From Rhodospirillales bacterium (GTDB lineage: Bacteria; Pseudomonadota; Alphaproteobacteria; Dongiales; Dongiaceae): a stretch of DNA of 64,000 bases. The stretch's first letter is position 1; each line of letters opens with the position of its first letter. Positions 19,973 to 39,524 of the stretch are shown here, piece after piece. Where the stretch lies: positions 62,001 to 126,000 of the forward strand of contig VFKA01000008.1 in the NCBI GenBank assembly GCA_009885795.1, given 5' to 3'. A program made the position numbers and the translations under genes. The notes beneath the pieces were generated by a model. The model was not told the DNA's origin, did not search any database, and worked only from the letters and a program-made list of their open reading frames with translations.

Positions 19973-20769
19973 CGCTCGCCCCCGAAGCGGTAGAACCGGG
20001 AGATCGCCAGCATCAACGCCATCGAGACGAGAATGATGATGGTCGAGATGGCGTTGATCTCCGGCGTGAAGCCTTTGCGGATCGAAGAATAGATTTCGAC
20101 CGGGAGCGTCGAGACGCCGGGCGGAGCGAGAAAATACGAAATCACGAATTGGTCGAAGGAAACCGCGAAGGCGAAAAGCGCGGCCGCGACCACGCCTGGC
20201 GCCATCACCGGCACGCTGACGCGCCGAAAGGCCTGCCAGGGCGTCGCCCCCAGAGTCGCCGCCGCTTCCTCGAGACCCGTGCCGAAGCTTTTGAGCCTGG
20301 CGCCGACCACGACGATGACATAAGGGAGCGACAGGGCCACATGCCCGAGCAGCATGGCATGGAACCCGCGCCCGATGCCGATCCAGAAAAACATGACCAG
20401 CATCGATGTACCGATGATGAGCCAGGGAATGGTGATCGGCGGGAACAGCAGCAGCTGCAACAGGGTCCGGCCGCGAAAGCGGTAGCGGGCCATCGCCAGC
20501 GCCGCGGCGGTCCCCAGCGCCGTGGCGACGACGGTGTTGACGATGGCGAGAGCCACGGAATTGACGCCGGCATCGATCAGCCGCCAGTTGTCGGCCAGGG
20601 CCTCGAACCATACCGTGTCGAACTCGATCGGCAGCAGATAGAGGCTCGAGCGGTTGAAGGCCATGATCATCATCACGGCGATCGGCAGATAGAGGAAGAA
20701 CAGCACGAGACCCAGATAGAGCCTCAGCGAAAGGGACAACAGGCCCGGCACTTTAGTACTCGCTTTCAT
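19969..20769 (-). CDS. potC: ABC transporter permease, PotC-like
   Basis: A 266-residue inner-membrane permease with six predicted helices and the EAA loop (EEAAATLGATPWQAFRRVSVPVMAPG) that docks to the ATPase. The ATG at 20769 (MKASTKVPGLL) is chosen because an upstream in-frame ATG at 20799 lies in a dispersed repeat. It is coupled to potA by GTGA. A repeat separates it from the PotB-like gene. Confidence 0.8.
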   Translation of the reverse strand: MKASTKVPGLLSLSLRLYLGLVLFFLYLPIAVMMIMAFNRSSLYLLPIEFDTVWFEALADNWRLIDAGVNSVALAIVNTVVATALGTAAALAMARYRFRGRTLLQLLLFPPITIPWLIIGTSMLVMFFWIGIGRGFHAMLLGHVALSLPYVIVVVGARLKSFGTGLEEAAATLGATPWQAFRRVSVPVMAPGVVAAALFAFAVSFDQFVISYFLAPPGVSTLPVEIYSSIRKGFTPEINAISTIIILVSMALMLAISRFYRFGGER

Positions 20770-20793
20770 GCGAGGCTGAATCGCGGGTGCCGC

Positions 20794-20863
20794 CCTCATG
20801 CTTCGACAGGCTCAGCATGAGGGCCTCATCCTGACCTTCCTCGTCCTGAGCTTGTCGAAGGAC
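20794..20863. repeat. Family B dispersed palindromic repeat within the pot operon
   Basis: Two inverted copies of CTTCGACAGGCTCAG-CATGAGG-like sequence (the second reads CGTCCTGAGCTTGTCGAAGG) lie between potB and potC. Related copies occur near 39.5, 41.2 and 63.6 kb. Confidence 0.75.
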
Positions 20864-20914
20864 GTGGGATAGCGGCCCTATGTCAGTCATCTGTCATTCG
20901 ATGCATGTCGCCCC

Positions 20915-21781
20915 TCACGCGGTCCGCAGGGTTCGGCGCAGGAACGGCGCCGCGAGGCCGAGGATCAGCAGCACGATCGCCAGCAGCGTGAAACTTAGCG
21001 CCGCCCCGAACGGCCAATTGAAGATGCGGGTGAACTGCTCCTCGATGACCGTCCCCAGCATGGCGCTGCCGGCGACACCGCCCAGGATGCGCGGCTCCAT
21101 GAACGAGCCGATGACCGGCACGAAGATCAGAACCGTGCCGGCCAGCAGGCCAGGGAGGCTCAACGGCAGGACGATACGCCGGAACACGGTGCGGCCCGGC
21201 GCGCCCAGCACGCGCGCCGCCTCGATCAGGCTCTCGTCGATCGCCTGCAAGGAGACGTAGCAGGTGAGGATCATGTAGGGCAAATAGGCATGCACCAGCC
21301 CGACGACCACGGCCGGATAGGAAAACAAAATATCGAGCGACGGCATGCCCGGCACGACCCAGTGGATGGCGCGATCGACCAGGCCGTCGCCGCGCAGCGT
21401 CATGGTCCAGGAGAACGTGCGCACCAGCGCGTTGCTCCAGAACGGCAGCACGATCAGCAGGAACATGGCCTCGCGCCAGCGCCCCTTCACATGGCGCGCC
21501 AGCGCCAGCGCCGCCGGGTAACCGAGCAGAATGCAGGCGATGGTGACATCCATCCCCATGCGCAGCGAGCGCCAGGTGAGGTCGAGATAAAGGTCCTTGG
21601 TCAGGATCGAACGGTAATGCGCCAGCGTCGCCACCGGCTGGCGGCCGCCGAACGGCGCCTCGGTCAGGAAGCTGAAATAAAGCATCGCCGACAGCGGCAG
21701 GAATATGGTCAGCACCAGCCACAGATAGGCGGGCGCCGTCAGGCCCAACACCGCCACCCGGCGCCGCTGGTCCGCGTTCAC
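20915..21781 (-). CDS. potB: ABC transporter permease, PotB-like
   Basis: A 288-residue permease with about six membrane segments and an EAA motif (IEAARVLGAPGRTVFRRIVLPLSLPG). It pairs with the PotC-like protein to form the channel. The start is GTG at 21781 with GGGGGA upstream. Order on this strand is potD, potB, potC, potA, the usual composition of a polyamine-type importer. Confidence 0.8.
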   Translation of the reverse strand: MNADQRRRVAVLGLTAPAYLWLVLTIFLPLSAMLYFSFLTEAPFGGRQPVATLAHYRSILTKDLYLDLTWRSLRMGMDVTIACILLGYPAALALARHVKGRWREAMFLLIVLPFWSNALVRTFSWTMTLRGDGLVDRAIHWVVPGMPSLDILFSYPAVVVGLVHAYLPYMILTCYVSLQAIDESLIEAARVLGAPGRTVFRRIVLPLSLPGLLAGTVLIFVPVIGSFMEPRILGGVAGSAMLGTVIEEQFTRIFNWPFGAALSFTLLAIVLLILGLAAPFLRRTLRTA

Positions 21782-21804
21782 CGCCGATCCCCCATGATGA
21801 AAGC

Positions 21805-21829
21805 GGGGCCCGGCGCTTGGCCGGGCCCC
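21805..21829 (-). promoter_or_regulatory. Strong hairpin between potD and potB
   Basis: A perfect ten-base stem GGGGCCCGGC/GCCGGGCCCC with a five-base loop sits just after the binding-protein stop. Such stem-loops commonly protect the upstream message so that binding protein exceeds permease. No T-run follows, so it need not terminate. Confidence 0.55.
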
Positions 21830-21844
21830 GATCTCTCGCCGAAA

Positions 21845-22888
21845 CTATTGCGCGAAATACGCCTTCGTCTCGTCCCAAAGCTCCTGGTACTGGGCGCGCT
21901 GCTCATCCGACATCGGCGCCATCCATTGCAGCCTGGCGACAACGGCCGGGTCGCCGAGAACGGCGCGGTTCATGGCATCTTCCGGAAGTTGCGCGTTGGC
22001 CTTGCCGTTGGACGAGGCCGGCGCTCCCACGTCGGTATCCCAGCGCACGTAGAATTCCGGGCTCACCATGAAATCGATGAACTGGTGGGCGGCTTCGGCG
22101 TTGGGCGCGTCCTTGGCGATCGACAGGCCGTCGAACCAGCCGATGGCGCCTTCCTCCGGCACCACGAAATCCACCGGCAGGCTGAAGGCCTTCTTGCTGC
22201 GCGCCGCCGAGCCGCTCCAATAGGTGGCGACATCGAAATCCTTGGCGCCCATGAACTTGTTCCACTCGTCCTCGGACGACCAGAAGGTCTTGATCTGGCC
22301 TTTGAGCGCGTGGAGCTTCTGCCGGACCGCCTCGATATCGGCGGGATTGTTCATGTCCTGGCCGGTAGCGATGGCGGCGAGTTGCACCGATTCGACGGCG
22401 TCGTCGCGCCAGCCGATGCGCCCGACATAGGCCGGATCCCACAGCACCTGGATACTGGCCGGCGCGGCGGTAAGGGCCTCGGTGTTATAGGCGAAGGACG
22501 TGACGCCCCAGACCCAGGCGACGCCATAGAGCTTGCCGTCGATGTTGAAGCGCGTCGAATCGCGTAGCTCGGCCGAGAGATCGGCGAAATTCGCGATCTT
22601 GGTCGAATCGATCGGCTGGAGTACGCCTTCCGCGACCGCCTGTTCGGTGAAGGCGCTGTTGATCAGCACGACGTCATAGACGCCGGGGCTGGTCCGCAGC
22701 TTGGTCAGCATCTCCTGCTCGGAGTTGAAATTGTCGTGGATGACCTTGACCCCGCTCTTCTCCTCGAAGATCTGCACCGCCCAGGCCTCGTCGGTGCCGT
22801 AGCCTTGCCAATTGAGAATGTGGAGTTCCGTTGGCTTGCCGGGCTGGAGGTAGAAATACGCGCCGACCACGACAACCACCACCACCAC
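21845..22888 (-). CDS. potD: Extracellular solute-binding protein, PotD-like, with interrupted signal sequence
   Basis: A polyamine-type periplasmic binding protein: after a hydrophobic stretch comes ELHILNWQGYGTDEAW, then NFNSEQEMLTKL, YDVVLINSAFTEQAVAEG and the C-terminal FIDFMVSPEF region. The annotated start is the first GTG of a GTG run at 22888, which has no ribosome site. In the same frame 33 bp upstream, an ATG at 22921 has an excellent AGGGAG seven bases before it, but codon seven (22901-22903) is TAG. Without that amber codon the signal peptide would read MSSKMK-x-LIAVVVVVVV. The gene is either damaged, suppressed or contains a sequencing error. Confidence 0.75.
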   Translation of the reverse strand: MVVVVVVVGAYFYLQPGKPTELHILNWQGYGTDEAWAVQIFEEKSGVKVIHDNFNSEQEMLTKLRTSPGVYDVVLINSAFTEQAVAEGVLQPIDSTKIANFADLSAELRDSTRFNIDGKLYGVAWVWGVTSFAYNTEALTAAPASIQVLWDPAYVGRIGWRDDAVESVQLAAIATGQDMNNPADIEAVRQKLHALKGQIKTFWSSEDEWNKFMGAKDFDVATYWSGSAARSKKAFSLPVDFVVPEEGAIGWFDGLSIAKDAPNAEAAHQFIDFMVSPEFYVRWDTDVGAPASSNGKANAQLPEDAMNRAVLGDPAVVARLQWMAPMSDEQRAQYQELWDETKAYFAQ

Positions 22889-30034: not shown

Positions 30035-30048
30035 TTGATCTAGGTCAA
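30035..30048 (+). promoter_or_regulatory. FNR/FixK/NnrR-type box upstream of nirK
   Basis: TTGATCTAGGTCAA fits the TTGAY-N4-RTCAA consensus exactly. Its centre is about 71 bp before the nirK ATG. A class II activation geometry would place the start of transcription near 30083, with a -10-like CAAAAT at 30071-30076. It suggests control by oxygen limitation or nitric oxide. Confidence 0.65.
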
Positions 30049-30112
30049 GCCTCCTCATTGCCCGGCCGGGCAAAATCTCGGTCGTGCCGACTGGCTCACC
30101 GGGAGTATTCGC

Positions 30113-31852
30113 ATGAAAATGGGCACTCGCTTGACCATCGCCGCCGCGCTTATCGGGGCGATAGCCGCGGCCACGCCGGCCCCGGCGGCGGAAGATATCG
30201 GCGCCGGCGAGCGGATATTCCGCAAGTGCCAGGCCTGTCACAGCCTCGAGGCCGGCGTCGACAAGGTTGGGCCGAGCCTTGCCGGTATCATCGGCCGCGC
30301 GGCGGCCACGTCGCCCGAGTTCCTCTATTCGAGCGCCATGAAGCGGTCGGGGCTTACCTGGGACGACCGGACCCTCGATACGTTCCTCGCCGGCCCATCC
30401 GGCCTCGTGCCCGGCACGAAGATGATTTTCACAGGCGTCAAGAAACCCGAGGACCGCGCCAATCTGATCGCCTACCTGAAGTCGCTCGCTATCGCCGCCG
30501 CGCCGGCCGCGGCGGTCCCGGCGGCGGCGCCCGCGGCGCGCGATCCTTCCATACCGGCCGATTACGTGGCCGACGTGAAGTACACATTGCGCACCGGCAT
30601 CGCCGAGGGCCGCATGGTGTATATCGGCTTCGGCGGCGCCATCGACGGAATCGTCAATCCCGATCTCGGCGCGGCCGAGGGCGACGTGGTGCAGATCACG
30701 CTGATCAACGGCGAGGGGGCCGAGCACGACATCGTGCTAACCGAGCAGGGCGCCGCCTCGCAGCATGTCGTCGCCAAGGGCGCCGCCACGACCATCGCGT
30801 TTCGCGCCAAGGCGCCCGGCACGACCAGCTACTACTGTTCGCTGGCGGGCCACCGCCAGGCCGGCATGGAGGGCCGTTTCGTGGTCAAGGCGCGGGCGCC
30901 GGAGGCGGCGGCGCCGGTGGCGCCCGACATCGTCATGGACCCGGCTTCCGTGCCGCCGCCGGTGGGCGATCGCCCGGCCCAGCATGTCCGCGTCGAGCTG
31001 GACGCCGTGGAGCTGGACGGCCAGTTGGCCGACGGCGCCACCTTCCAGTATTGGACCTTCAACGGCACCGTGCCCGGCCCGTTCCTGCGGGTGCGCGTCG
31101 GCGACACGGTGGAAGTGGTCATGAAGAACGATGCGGATTCCGCCATGATCCATTCGGTGGACTTCCACGCCGCGACCGGCCCCGGCGGCGGCGCGGCGTT
31201 CCTGCAGGTCGATCCGGGCGGCGAGAAGCAGCTCGACTTCAAGGCCTTGGTGCCGGGGATCTACGTCTATCACTGCGCCACGCCGATGGTGGCGCACCAC
31301 ATCGCCAACGGCATGTACGGGCTCATCCTGGTCGAGCCGGAGGGCGGCCTGCCGCCGGTCGACCGCGAGTTCTACGTCATGCAAGGCGAGATCTATACCG
31401 AGGCGCCGTTCGGCCAGCCGGGCAGCCAGGAGTTCAGCGTCGACAAGCTGCTCGCCGAGGCGCCCGAGTACTTTGTGTTCAACGGCGCCGTGGGCGCACT
31501 CACGACCGAGCATGCGCTCAAGGCCCGGGTGGGCGAGACCGTGCGCCTCTACGTCGGCGTCGGCGGTCCCAATTTCACCTCCTCGTTCCATGTCATCGGC
31601 GAGATTTTCGATCGCGTTTACCAGTCGGGCGACCTGTTGAGCCCGCCGGCACGAGGAATTCAAACCGTTTCCGTGCCGCCCGGCGGCGCGGTGGTGACGG
31701 AGTTCAAGCTCGAAGTGCCGGGCCGCTACCTGCTCGTCGATCACGCGCTGAGCCGGCTCGAGCGCGGGTTGCTGGGCTTCCTCATCGTCGAGGGCGAAGC
31801 CAACGAGGACATCTACAAGCCCTACGGGGAGGGCTCGGCCACGGCCCATTAG
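30113..31852 (+). CDS. nirK: Multidomain copper nitrite reductase: cytochrome c, cupredoxin, NirK
   Basis: A 579-residue exported protein. It has a signal peptide (about 1-26), then a class I cytochrome c with CQACH at 39-43 and probable axial Met104. A linker rich in Ala and Pro leads to a cupredoxin with type 1 copper ligands His205, Cys242, His247 and Met252. The C-terminal half is a two-domain NirK: His347, Asp350, His352 (HSVDFH), His387-Cys388, His395/396, Met401, His493 and His544 supply the type 1 and type 2 copper sites and catalytic residues. It should reduce nitrite to NO in the periplasm with built-in electron-transfer modules. An FNR-type box precedes it and hemerythrin follows. 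Confidence 0.88.
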   Translation: MKMGTRLTIAAALIGAIAAATPAPAAEDIGAGERIFRKCQACHSLEAGVDKVGPSLAGIIGRAAATSPEFLYSSAMKRSGLTWDDRTLDTFLAGPSGLVPGTKMIFTGVKKPEDRANLIAYLKSLAIAAAPAAAVPAAAPAARDPSIPADYVADVKYTLRTGIAEGRMVYIGFGGAIDGIVNPDLGAAEGDVVQITLINGEGAEHDIVLTEQGAASQHVVAKGAATTIAFRAKAPGTTSYYCSLAGHRQAGMEGRFVVKARAPEAAAPVAPDIVMDPASVPPPVGDRPAQHVRVELDAVELDGQLADGATFQYWTFNGTVPGPFLRVRVGDTVEVVMKNDADSAMIHSVDFHAATGPGGGAAFLQVDPGGEKQLDFKALVPGIYVYHCATPMVAHHIANGMYGLILVEPEGGLPPVDREFYVMQGEIYTEAPFGQPGSQEFSVDKLLAEAPEYFVFNGAVGALTTEHALKARVGETVRLYVGVGGPNFTSSFHVIGEIFDRVYQSGDLLSPPARGIQTVSVPPGGAVVTEFKLEVPGRYLLVDHALSRLERGLLGFLIVEGEANEDIYKPYGEGSATAH

Positions 31853-31861
31853 AAGGATGCA

Positions 31862-32410
31862 ATGCTAGACATCCTTCACCAGCTTGCCCGCGACCATCGG
31901 AACATGGAACGGCTGCTCGTCCTCATCGAGCGGCAGATGGATGCGCACCGTGGCGGCGCCGCGCTCGACATCGATCTTCCGCGGAACATCCTCGATTACA
32001 TCCTGAATTACCCCGACCGCGTCCACCATCCCAAGGAGGATCTGATCTTCGAACGCTTGCGCCGGATCGATCCCGAGGGGGCGGCGGTCGTCGCCGACGT
32101 CCTCGGCGAACATCCGGCGCTGCGCCAGGCGACCGAATGCTTCGCCAGCACGCTCCGCAACGTGGCCCACGACGCCGAAATCCCGCGCGATTGGTTCGAA
32201 GCCATCGCCCGCAACTACATCGGCAAGACCCGCGCCCACATGCATCAGGAAGAAAAAGTCTTCTTTCCCCGCGCGCTGGCTCGGCTCAAGTACGATGACT
32301 GGCGCGCCATCGACGCCGCCGGCGCCGCCCCCGCCGACCCGCTGTTCGGGCCAACGGTCGAAAAGAAGTACCTTGCCCTGCACGAACGCATCCTGCAGCT
32401 CGGCGAGTGA
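31862..32410 (+). CDS. Hemerythrin-domain protein
   Basis: A 182-residue hemerythrin-like four-helix protein. Candidate di-iron ligands are His12, His55/56 with Glu59 (VHHPKEDLIFE), His84, and His126/His128 with Glu130/131 (HMHQEEKVFF). It starts 9 bp after nirK, so it is almost certainly co-transcribed. A role in binding oxygen or NO, or in repairing metal centres under nitrosative stress, is suggested by that context. Confidence 0.85.
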   Translation: MLDILHQLARDHRNMERLLVLIERQMDAHRGGAALDIDLPRNILDYILNYPDRVHHPKEDLIFERLRRIDPEGAAVVADVLGEHPALRQATECFASTLRNVAHDAEIPRDWFEAIARNYIGKTRAHMHQEEKVFFPRALARLKYDDWRAIDAAGAAPADPLFGPTVEKKYLALHERILQLGE

Positions 32411-34612: not shown

Positions 34613-36142
34613 ATGACAACCACTCCCTTTCCAAGCCCGAGCGCGAGGCCGCTTCTGAAGCTGCGCCGCGTCGGCATCGACAGCTATCGCGAGAACGTCG
34701 CCTTCCTGGCGCGCACGTGCATCCGCCATCGGCCCGAGGAATTCCAGGCCCTTGGCAAGGTCGAGATCGCCCATGACGGCCGCCTGATTCTCGCCGTCCT
34801 CAACATCGTCGACGATGCCCGCATTCTCGCCGACGACGAGCTGGGGCTTGCCGAGCAGGCCTTCGCGCAACTGGGATTGCCCGAGGGCAGCCCGGTCGGC
34901 ATCGCCCAGGCGGCGCGCCCGGCAAGTCTCGAAGCGGTGCGCGGCAAGATTCTGGGCCGCGGCTTCGAACCATCGGAGATCGAGGCCATCGTGCGCGACA
35001 TCGCCGGCCACCGCTATTCGAAGATGGAGATCGCGGCCTTCCTCATCGCTTCGGCCCGCTTCCTGACGACCGAGGAAGTCCTCGGCCTCACGCGCGCTAT
35101 GGCGGCGGTGGGCACGCGGCTTGAGTGGGCCGAGCCGGTCATCGCCGACAAGCACAGCATCGGCGGCATACCGGGCGACCGTTCCTCGATGGTGGTGGTG
35201 CCGATCGTGGCGGCGCATGGCCTGCCGATCCCGAAGACGTCGTCGCGCGCGATTACCTCGCCCGCCGGCACCGCCGACACCATGGAGGTTCTGGCGCGCG
35301 TCGATCTCGGCGTCGCCGAAATGCGCGCCGTGGTCGAACGCGAGCGCGGCTGTCTCGTCTGGGGCGGCCATGTCAACCTGTCGCCGGCCGACGACGTGCT
35401 GATTTCGGTCGAGCGGCCGTTGGGCATCGACACCCGCGAGCAGATGGTGGCCTCGATCCTGTCGAAGAAACTGGCGGCGGGCTCGACCCACCTGTTGATC
35501 GATATCCCGCTCGGGCCGACCGCCAAGGTGCGCAACCGGAACGAGGCGATCGCGCTCAGGAAGCTCTTCGAATACATCGGCGATCAGGTCGGGCTCGCCA
35601 TCGATGTCGCCGTCACCGATGGCACGCAGCCGATCGGGCGCGGCATCGGCCCGGTGCTGGAGGCGCGCGACGTGATGGCGGTGCTTCGCGGCGATGCCAA
35701 TGCCCCCGACGCGCTGCGTAGGAAGGCGCTCCTGCTCGCGGGCCGGATCATCGAGTTCGATCCGGCGCTCCGCGGCGGCCGCGGCGCCGCGCGCGCCCAG
35801 GAACTGCTGGAGACCGGCCAGGCGCTGGCCGCGATGGAGCGCATCATCGACGCGCAAGGGCGCGCCGCGGGTAATCATCGCCTGGGCGACCTTACCTACG
35901 AGGCCTCCGCCCCCGCCGACGGCATTGTCGAGGCGATGGACTGCTACCGCCTGGCCCGGATCGCGCGCCTGGCCGGCGCGCCGATGGACAAGGGCGCCGG
36001 CATCGATCTCTTTTGCAAGCTCGGCGACCGGGTGCGGGCCGGGCAGCCGCTCTATCGCATCCATGCCTGCGTCCCGGCCGATTTCCGGTTCGCGACCGAC
36101 CTCGCCGGCGAAGACTCCGGCTACAGGATAACCGCCGCATGA
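34613..36142 (+). CDS. Thymidine/AMP-phosphorylase-like enzyme
   Basis: A 509-residue protein of the thymidine phosphorylase family, closest in layout to the archaeal AMP-phosphorylase type with an extra N-terminal domain (about residues 1-90). Phosphate-binding and catalytic segments are DKHSIGGIPGDRSSM and KTSSRAITSPAGTADTME. It should split a nucleoside or nucleotide with phosphate to give ribose-1-phosphate or ribose-1,5-bisphosphate. Its TGA overlaps the ATG of a PRPP-synthetase homologue, implying a joint pathway of ribose-phosphate recovery. Confidence 0.82.
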   Translation: MTTTPFPSPSARPLLKLRRVGIDSYRENVAFLARTCIRHRPEEFQALGKVEIAHDGRLILAVLNIVDDARILADDELGLAEQAFAQLGLPEGSPVGIAQAARPASLEAVRGKILGRGFEPSEIEAIVRDIAGHRYSKMEIAAFLIASARFLTTEEVLGLTRAMAAVGTRLEWAEPVIADKHSIGGIPGDRSSMVVVPIVAAHGLPIPKTSSRAITSPAGTADTMEVLARVDLGVAEMRAVVERERGCLVWGGHVNLSPADDVLISVERPLGIDTREQMVASILSKKLAAGSTHLLIDIPLGPTAKVRNRNEAIALRKLFEYIGDQVGLAIDVAVTDGTQPIGRGIGPVLEARDVMAVLRGDANAPDALRRKALLLAGRIIEFDPALRGGRGAARAQELLETGQALAAMERIIDAQGRAAGNHRLGDLTYEASAPADGIVEAMDCYRLARIARLAGAPMDKGAGIDLFCKLGDRVRAGQPLYRIHACVPADFRFATDLAGEDSGYRITAA

Positions 36143-37041
36143 CCCGGCGTTCCCGCCTGCCCGATGCGATCTACGGGTTCCCCGAGTCCGAGAGCCAGTC
36201 GCGCCGGCTCGCCCTCGAGCTTGGCGTTCCCCACCGCGCCATCGGCGTCCATCGGTTCCCCGACGGCGAAACGCGGATCACGGTCGCGCCGCCGGCCGAG
36301 AACGCGATCGTCTACCGTTCGCTCGACCGGCCGAACGAGAAACTCGTCGAGCTGTTGCTGGCGGCATCGGCGCTGCGCGACCAGGGCGCGCGCCGGCTCA
36401 CGCTGCTTGCCCCTTACATGGCCTATATGCGCCAGGACGCGGCGTTCCAGGACGGCGAGGCGGTCAGCCAGCGCGCCATCGGCGCCTGGCTCGGCCGCGC
36501 CTTCGATCGCGTCGTCACCGTGAACCCGCATCTTCATCGCACGCCCAGCATCGCCGAAATCTTCCCCGGCGCCGAGGCGATCGCCGCCGATGCCGCGCCG
36601 GCGCTGGCCGCCCATATCGCGGCGCTGGGCCTTGCCGACGCCGTGCTGGTCGGCCCGGACGAGGAATCCGCGGCCCTCGTCCACGCCGTTGGCGCGTTGG
36701 CGAAGCGCCCGTTGCTCATCGGCCGTAAGGTGCGCCAGGGCGATCGCGGCGTCGACATCGAGATCGACGGCATCGCGCGGATCGTCAACGCGCCGGTCGT
36801 CATCGTCGACGACATCGTATCGAGCGGCGCCACCTTCATGACGTGCGCCAGGCTCCTGAAAAGGGCCGGCGCCGCGCGTATCCTCGGCCTCGTCGTTCAT
36901 GCCCTCTATTCGCCGGAATCGGCGCAAGGCATGCAGAACGCCGGCGTGGAGACCATTGCCAGCACCGACACGGTCCCGCACCCCTCGAACGCCATCCCAC
37001 TCGCGCTTACGCTCGCGGGCGCGCTGCGCCGGCGGCCATAG
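36139..37041 (+). CDS. Ribose-phosphate pyrophosphokinase homologue
   Basis: A 300-residue PRPP-synthetase-family protein. It keeps the N-terminal phosphoribosyltransferase-like half and the PRPP-binding loop VVIVDDIVSSGATFMTCA near residue 225, plus YMAYMRQDAAFQDGE. It is probably not the housekeeping Prs: it is shorter, diverged, and translationally coupled to the phosphorylase gene. It may recycle ribose-phosphate units released by that enzyme (inference). Confidence 0.8.
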   Translation: MTRRSRLPDAIYGFPESESQSRRLALELGVPHRAIGVHRFPDGETRITVAPPAENAIVYRSLDRPNEKLVELLLAASALRDQGARRLTLLAPYMAYMRQDAAFQDGEAVSQRAIGAWLGRAFDRVVTVNPHLHRTPSIAEIFPGAEAIAADAAPALAAHIAALGLADAVLVGPDEESAALVHAVGALAKRPLLIGRKVRQGDRGVDIEIDGIARIVNAPVVIVDDIVSSGATFMTCARLLKRAGAARILGLVVHALYSPESAQGMQNAGVETIASTDTVPHPSNAIPLALTLAGALRRRP

Positions 37042-38854: not shown

Positions 38855-38868
38855 TTGACTCAGATCAA
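38855..38868 (+). promoter_or_regulatory. FNR/FixK-type box between pgi and the HPF-CSD gene
   Basis: TTGACTCAGATCAA fits TTGAY-N4-RTCAA exactly. Its centre lies about 75 bp upstream of the HPF-CSD start, nearly the same distance as the box before nirK. It is only 3 bp from the pgi ATG, so it could activate HPF-CSD and repress or have no effect on pgi. Confidence 0.6.
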
Positions 38869-38936: not shown

Positions 38937-39524
38937 ATGGCCGCGGCAAACGAAGTTCCATTACTGATAACCTGGCGGAACATGGCGGCTTCGCCCGCCA
39001 TCGAAGCGCGCCTGCGCCGCGAGGCGTTGAAGCTCGGCAAGCTCCACCTTCGGATCATCGACTGCCGGGCCCAGGTGGCGGCGCCGCACCGCCACCAACG
39101 CAAGGGCAAGCTCTACACCGTGCGCCTGCAGATCTTCTTTCCCGGCGGAAGCCTCTGGGTCAACCGCGGCAGCGCCCTGCACCATGCGCATGAGGACGTC
39201 TACGTCGCCATTCGCGACGCCTTCGCGGCGGCCAACCGGCGGCTCCAGGACAAGGCCGGCCGGCGCTCGGGCAAGGTGAAGCACCATGAGGTCGAGCCGC
39301 ATGGGGTCGTCAGTCGGCTTTTCCCGCGGCAGGGATACGGTTTCATCAAGACGCCGGCGGGCGAAGAAATCTACTTTCACAGGAACGCCGTCGTCGGCAA
39401 CGGCTTTGCGCGCCTGAAGGAAGGGGCCGAAATCCGCTTTTCGGCGGCCGAAGGCGAGAGCGACAAGGGCCCGCAGGCGACGACGGTGAAGCTGGTCGGA
39501 AAGCACCATCTGACGCCCGAGTGA
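38937..39524 (+). CDS. Ribosome-hibernation (HPF/RaiA-like) and cold-shock-domain fusion protein
   Basis: A 195-residue protein. Residues 1-105 resemble the HPF/RaiA sigma-54-modulation fold (LLITWRNMAASPAIEARLRREA, then VRLQIFFPGGSL and HEDVYVAIRDAFAAANRRLQ). Residues 121-190 form a cold-shock domain with the RNA-binding patches QGYGFI and EIYFHRNAV. It should bind ribosomes and RNA during growth arrest. An FNR-type box upstream suggests induction at low oxygen. Confidence 0.85.
   Translation: MAAANEVPLLITWRNMAASPAIEARLRREALKLGKLHLRIIDCRAQVAAPHRHQRKGKLYTVRLQIFFPGGSLWVNRGSALHHAHEDVYVAIRDAFAAANRRLQDKAGRRSGKVKHHEVEPHGVVSRLFPRQGYGFIKTPAGEEIYFHRNAVVGNGFARLKEGAEIRFSAAEGESDKGPQATTVKLVGKHHLTPE

Follow-up and report, generated by a model that had tools for sequence, protein, structure and literature searches.

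The window (the whole 64-kb stretch of DNA that was analysed) encodes a 579-aa copper nitrite reductase, NirK, which is a further member of the known four-domain heme-cupredoxin-NirK class and differs from that class only modestly, at its N-terminus. The order heme c, cupredoxin, NirK had been called unusual in an earlier note on this DNA. That claim of novelty fails because the same order has already been published and characterised, and is found in many related bacteria: as related in citing papers, Sasaki and co-workers (FEBS J 2020, doi 10.1111/febs.15324) described it for the Br4D NiR of Bradyrhizobium sp. ORS 375, and the class also appears in passages of PMC7775769, PMC8301774 and PMC12117333 and in PDB entry 6the. 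We consider it highly probable (roughly 0.93) that the protein belongs to this class as a copper nitrite reductase that works in the periplasm and releases NO, with a heme-to-copper electron path and regulation by low oxygen, and that together with the nitrate reductase and the eNOR-like NO reductase of its genome it would take nitrate to N2O; of this reading, the domains, the ligands, the box, the operon-like spacing and the gene content are read from the sequence, and we infer the electron path, the localisation, the regulation and the activity.

Domain layout of the nirK product

The gene lies where the earlier note had placed it (Table 1), and the domain set and order that it gave are borne out by the profile matches. 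On the 579-aa protein, Pfam finds Cytochrom_C at residues 31-125, Copper-bind at 212-259 and Cu-oxidase_3/_2 at 307-410, while NCBIfam TIGR02376 (Cu_nitrite_red) matches residues 273-570 with 351.9 bits (cut-off 296.3). The cytochrome domain scores 94.8 bits with NF043008, cytochrome c-550 CycA, which is under that model's cut-off of 240, and it is at most 64% identical to the free c550 proteins of family relatives. The N-terminal cupredoxin aligns with that of Hyphomicrobium HdNiR (2dv6/6tfd). The polypeptide stops at the NirK core, with no CxxCH beyond it. As judged from the sequence, the product is an intact secreted protein that carries heme c, cupredoxin and NirK in one chain.

Table 1. 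Position of the nirK-hemerythrin unit and of its parts in the window
Feature	Coordinates	Strand	Remarks
FNR/FixK/Dnr-type box TTGATCTAGGTCAA	30035..30048	+	64 nt 5' of the nirK start codon
Four-domain NirK gene	30113..31852	+	579 aa; ATG at 30113, stop at 31850-31852, one unbroken frame
Predicted cleavable signal peptide	30113..30190	+	aa 1 to ~26, ...PAPAA|ED; hydrophobic aa 7-25; judged by eye
c550-type cytochrome c domain	30191..30496	+	aa 27-128; PF00034
N-terminal cupredoxin, plastocyanin-like	30572..30898	+	aa 154-262; PF00127
NirK catalytic core, AniA/HdNiR type	30920..31816	+	aa 270-568; TIGR02376 over cut-off
Hemerythrin (HHE) gene	31862..32410	+	182 aa; PF01814, E 8.4e-14; 9 nt after the nirK stop

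We give almost no weight to the idea that an assembly artefact or frame error has joined two genes. GC-rich Ala/Pro linkers are error-prone and one relative, L025, is frame-broken exactly there, but the nirK gene is a single open frame on a contig of a 3.46-Mb genome that is 99.9% complete and 0.6% contaminated, and the artefact is contradicted because the fusion recurs in independent assemblies, namely in 23 other public loci that include isolates (Bradyrhizobium, Pseudolabrys).

Metal sites and structure model

As the earlier note had claimed, the full ligand sets are visible. The predicted heme site consists of C39-Q-A-C42-H43 and M104, and the cupredoxin copper is predicted to be bound by H205, C242, H247 and M252. 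In the NirK core we find the type-1 copper ligands H347, C388, H396 and M401, the type-2 copper ligands H352, H387 and H544, and the catalytic residues D350, H493 and I495. In 67 aligned proteins there is no variation at D350, at two of the type-2 ligands or at any ligand of the cupredoxin or type-1 ligand of NirK, nor, in the rows that cover the column, at the third type-2 ligand and the two other catalytic residues, His and Ile; the heme ligands are retained, except in isolated rows, among those aligned proteins that have a cytochrome domain. Nitrite reductase stands as the predicted function, with TIGR02376 above its cut-off and the ligands complete.

An AlphaFold model built from the 67-sequence alignment reached a pLDDT of 86 and was used in place of an earlier prediction from a 21-sequence alignment (pLDDT 61), which was set aside. 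The model has a pTM of 0.60 and a pLDDT below 50 in the linker at residues 130-151, and the relative placement of its domains is unreliable. Its core is closest to 6the, the 'core domain of four-domain heme-cupredoxin-Cu nitrite reductase from Bradyrhizobium sp. ORS 375' by its title, with 72% identity, an rmsd of 1.0 Å over 299 columns and a target TM-score of 0.98. Domain order, metal ligands and clade are likewise shared with Br4D NiR. A novel architecture is ruled out by this core match together with the literature on strain ORS 375.

AniA of Neisseria, an outer-membrane lipoprotein, consists of the two-domain core only. Its catalytic core (1kbv) is of the same class as that of our protein, with the SSFHV motif. 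The three-domain HdNiR of Hyphomicrobium denitrificans (2dv6, 6tfd, 6tfo) joins an N-terminal cupredoxin to the same type of NirK (62-64% identical), and the modelled cupredoxin-NirK part matches it (6tfo/6tfd/2dv6) over its length, but the HdNiR fusion is without the heme c domain that our protein has, which places the latter outside the three-domain type. The heme-NirK proteins of Ralstonia pickettii and Pseudoalteromonas haloplanktis (4ax3, 2zoo) combine a c-type heme with an AniA-like NirK whose core is about 50-52% identical; their heme domain is C-terminal and they have no extra cupredoxin, whereas in our protein the cytochrome precedes the core.

Distribution and descent of the four-domain class

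A search of NirK homologues for this architecture returned at least 23 further four-domain proteins in public genomes, at odds with the rarity that had been suggested. In a scan of one-genome-per-species contigs we took the best 80 of more than 500 loci, and these 80 contain 22 complete heme-cupredoxin-NirK chains and one more, L053, that is incomplete at a contig end. The carriers are Bradyrhizobium, Pseudolabrys, Rhodoplanes, Microvirga, Xanthobacteraceae, Hyphomicrobiaceae and Rhodospirillales records. According to passages of PMC7775769, several Rhizobiales, including Bradyrhizobium sp. ORS 375, have a four-domain heme-CuNiR besides a two-domain one; passages of PMC8301774 describe N-terminal tethering of both cytochrome c and cupredoxin domains, and in those of PMC10999283 the NirK of strain ORS 375 and the hexameric Hyphomicrobium enzyme are placed together in clade 1e, which is abundant in terrestrial biomes.

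In a maximum-likelihood tree of the cupredoxin-NirK part, the four-domain proteins fall into one clade (ultrafast bootstrap 99, SH-aLRT 93). This tree counts L025 as four-domain despite the frame break in its linker, and it leaves out the incomplete, long-branched L053, which a preliminary quick tree had not placed in the clade. Because the four-domain rows form a single clade with 99/93 support, one origin of the class is the simplest reading of these sequences, L053 aside, and an independent fusion in the lineage of our protein is unsupported by the same tree. When the 6the core was added, it fell inside the Bradyrhizobium-type branch with our protein next to that branch, and the sequences point to common descent with the characterised Bradyrhizobium enzyme. 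A tree of the cytochrome domain, too short at 102 columns to carry weight, puts our heme domain close to free c550s from the same family, but with no branch support.

Several other loci have layouts of their own. In L025 (4826-6670, a Baikal alphaproteobacterium MAG) the frame is lost precisely where the linker joins cytochrome c to the cupredoxin, which itself reads Ser and Gln in place of the type-1-site Cys and one His (YFSALPGQ); it is possibly a degenerate or single-copper variant, or an assembly error. In L029 (991-2973, a Burkholderiales MAG) a free c550 gene stands directly 5' of a cupredoxin-NirK gene that is separate from it and encodes a signal peptide of its own, plausibly a pre-fusion arrangement, though in another NirK branch. 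The cupredoxin-NirK proteins of Salinisphaera (L058 and L061) carry an N-terminal extension with no CxxCH, aligning in L058 from residue 35 of our protein on, and this extension is possibly a degraded heme domain.

Two N-terminal forms and the electron path

The members of the class differ in what precedes the heme. Our protein, L005, L007 and L053 have the heme motif 36-43 residues after Met (38 in our protein) and a signal-peptide-like start. The Bradyrhizobium-type members number 20 and share a single branch, fully supported, in which 6the also falls; nearly all of them have an N-terminal hydrophobic helix and a Pro/Ala/Ser-rich linker of 70-170 residues before the heme. This anchored subgroup is marked by the membrane helix and the long linker, whereas our protein has neither, a contrast with Br4D NiR that is drawn from its Bradyrhizobium-type relatives and not from the ORS 375 enzyme itself. 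The distance from Met to CxxCH is 95-198 residues in 19 of the 20; in the remaining one, L021, it is 47, which may be an effect of start choice. Start codons were assigned by rule, and under this rule L008 and L021 of the long branch are without a clear helix. Because the starts are rule-chosen and signal peptides were judged by eye, the split between a short, soluble and a long, tethered N-terminus is an indication, not proof; our protein is apparently of the shorter, soluble form. The literature passages on the four-domain enzyme make no mention of a soluble versus membrane-tethered split.

Tentatively, we suggest that the short soluble forms (our protein, L005, L007 and L053) may be ancestral, having arisen when a c550 gene became joined to the cupredoxin-NirK gene downstream of it, and that the tethered long-linker Bradyrhizobium form may have come later as a wired respiratory module. 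As part of the same suggestion, our enzyme would be the sole NO-forming nitrite reductase of its genome, unlike the second copy in Bradyrhizobium sp. ORS 375.

The N-terminus also bears on the electron donor. The earlier note had proposed that the enzyme could take electrons directly from the membrane chain. This idea has weak support in our protein, although a c550-type heme domain related by homology to the shuttle cytochromes is part of its chain. An enzyme wired to the membrane in the manner of cytochrome cy, its heme drawing electrons straight from bc1 with no soluble shuttle, would also fit the sister clade, where the hydrophobic helix and the flexible linker of 70-170 residues have the layout of a cytochrome cy-type tether. 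For our protein we regard such wiring as unlikely, since it has a signal-peptide-like N-terminus, no obvious membrane anchor and no long linker, and any contact with bc1 would therefore be diffusional.

The path that we favour for the periplasmic enzyme would run from the bc1 complex, directly or via a soluble c-type cytochrome, to the fused c550 heme, from there to the N-terminal type-1 copper and on to the type-1 copper of NirK, and then over the Cys388-His387 bridge to the type-2 copper, where nitrite would be turned into NO with protons supplied by Asp350 and His493. Another cytochrome is an equally good candidate for the electron donor, and two free c550-like genes are present in the genome. 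A place for the heme in this path agrees with the published drop in BrNiR activity from 9.38 to 1.67 nmol/s without the cytochrome domain (0.08 in D439N), as given in passages of a review (PMC12117333), which add that the extra domains do not by themselves raise efficiency.

Regulation, neighbours and genome context

The earlier note had spoken of an exact FNR/NnrR-type box upstream of nirK. A box for an anaerobic regulator is indeed present, but 'exact' was slightly overstated because the box differs by one base from the perfect FNR palindrome. TTGATCTAGGTCAA is the sole match to TTGATnnnnRTCAA within the window, and across the whole genome this pattern has 11 sites, as against 1 for a reversed control pattern. 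Of 24 four-domain genes, 9 have a box of the form TTGAN6TCAA in the 300 nt before them, where 0.1 would be expected from shuffles. By its upstream position and the enrichment over the control, the nirK box is a predicted site of the FNR/FixK/Dnr regulon.

A second FNR-like box in the window, TTGACTCAGATCAA (38855-38868; the observation also covers 38937-39524), closely precedes a glucose-6-phosphate-isomerase-like gene (minus strand, by eye) as well as a protein in which a ribosome-hibernation domain (PF02482) is fused to a cold-shock domain (PF00313). About 2 kb beyond the nirK-hemerythrin unit, at 34613-37041, a pyrimidine/AMP-phosphorylase-like gene (PF02885/PF00591/PF07831) overlaps or abuts a ribose-phosphate pyrophosphokinase-like gene, the two forming a nucleotide-salvage pair.

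Elsewhere in the genome we found full-length NarG, no second NirK, no cytochrome cd1 NirS and no NosZ above cut-off. A two-gene unit (L091, 843-3141; contig C23, ~20366-22664) encodes a CuA subunit II followed by a B-family-like heme-copper subunit I, in which a helix reads GHSSQQ where oxygen reductases have Tyr. An active-site glutamine and a cupredoxin subunit just upstream are the mark of eNOR (PMC8756737), and by these features the unit is an eNOR-like NO reductase. Among the matches of a COX1 search in this genome (aa3, cbb3, fragments and the L091 unit) there was no cNOR or qNOR. The eNOR-like unit has a perfect TTGATCTAGATCAA box ~240 nt away on its 5' side, and further TTGATnnnnRTCAA sites lie near ccoN and ~100 nt ahead of a pair of ORFs that stand before narG, an order that would fit narK-like genes. 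Because it combines a sole NirK with NarG and the eNOR-like reductase and has no NosZ, the host probably carries out denitrification only from nitrate to N2O, under the control of an FNR/FixK-type regulator. Such a regulator would turn nirK on at low oxygen, along with nitrate reductase, the eNOR-like NO reductase and the cbb3 oxidase, and their combined output would be the conversion of nitrate to N2O.

The hemerythrin gene reported next to nirK is confirmed by its Pfam match (Table 1) and, with so short a gap, is probably co-transcribed with it. Its presence, together with the missing NosZ and a report that the di-iron hemerythrin-type YtfE reduces nitrite to NO (in passages of PMC9052748), could suggest that NirK serves NO detoxification or signalling, with a low flux of NO made or handled with the hemerythrin, and not respiratory denitrification. 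We consider this improbable, as full-length NarG and the eNOR-like reductase with similar boxes favour respiration, and a tblastn search found no relatives of the hemerythrin in the fetched flanks of the other NirK loci, although a divergent copy could escape it. By the same search, a role as a conserved NirK partner is unsupported. Alongside a respiratory NirK, the hemerythrin is probably a lineage-specific partner that deals with NO or O2, its likely task being to sense or scavenge these gases or to protect iron centres.

In summary, the architecture is already characterised and the discovery value of the gene is small. What it adds to the class is a member that stands apart from the Bradyrhizobium branch and apparently has no second NirK beside it in its genome; passages of PMC7775769 report a second, two-domain NirK in Bradyrhizobium sp. 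ORS 375. The organism would be a clean system for testing the role of the fused cytochrome and cupredoxin in nitrite respiration, and its enzyme hints at two forms of the class, one soluble and one membrane-tethered.
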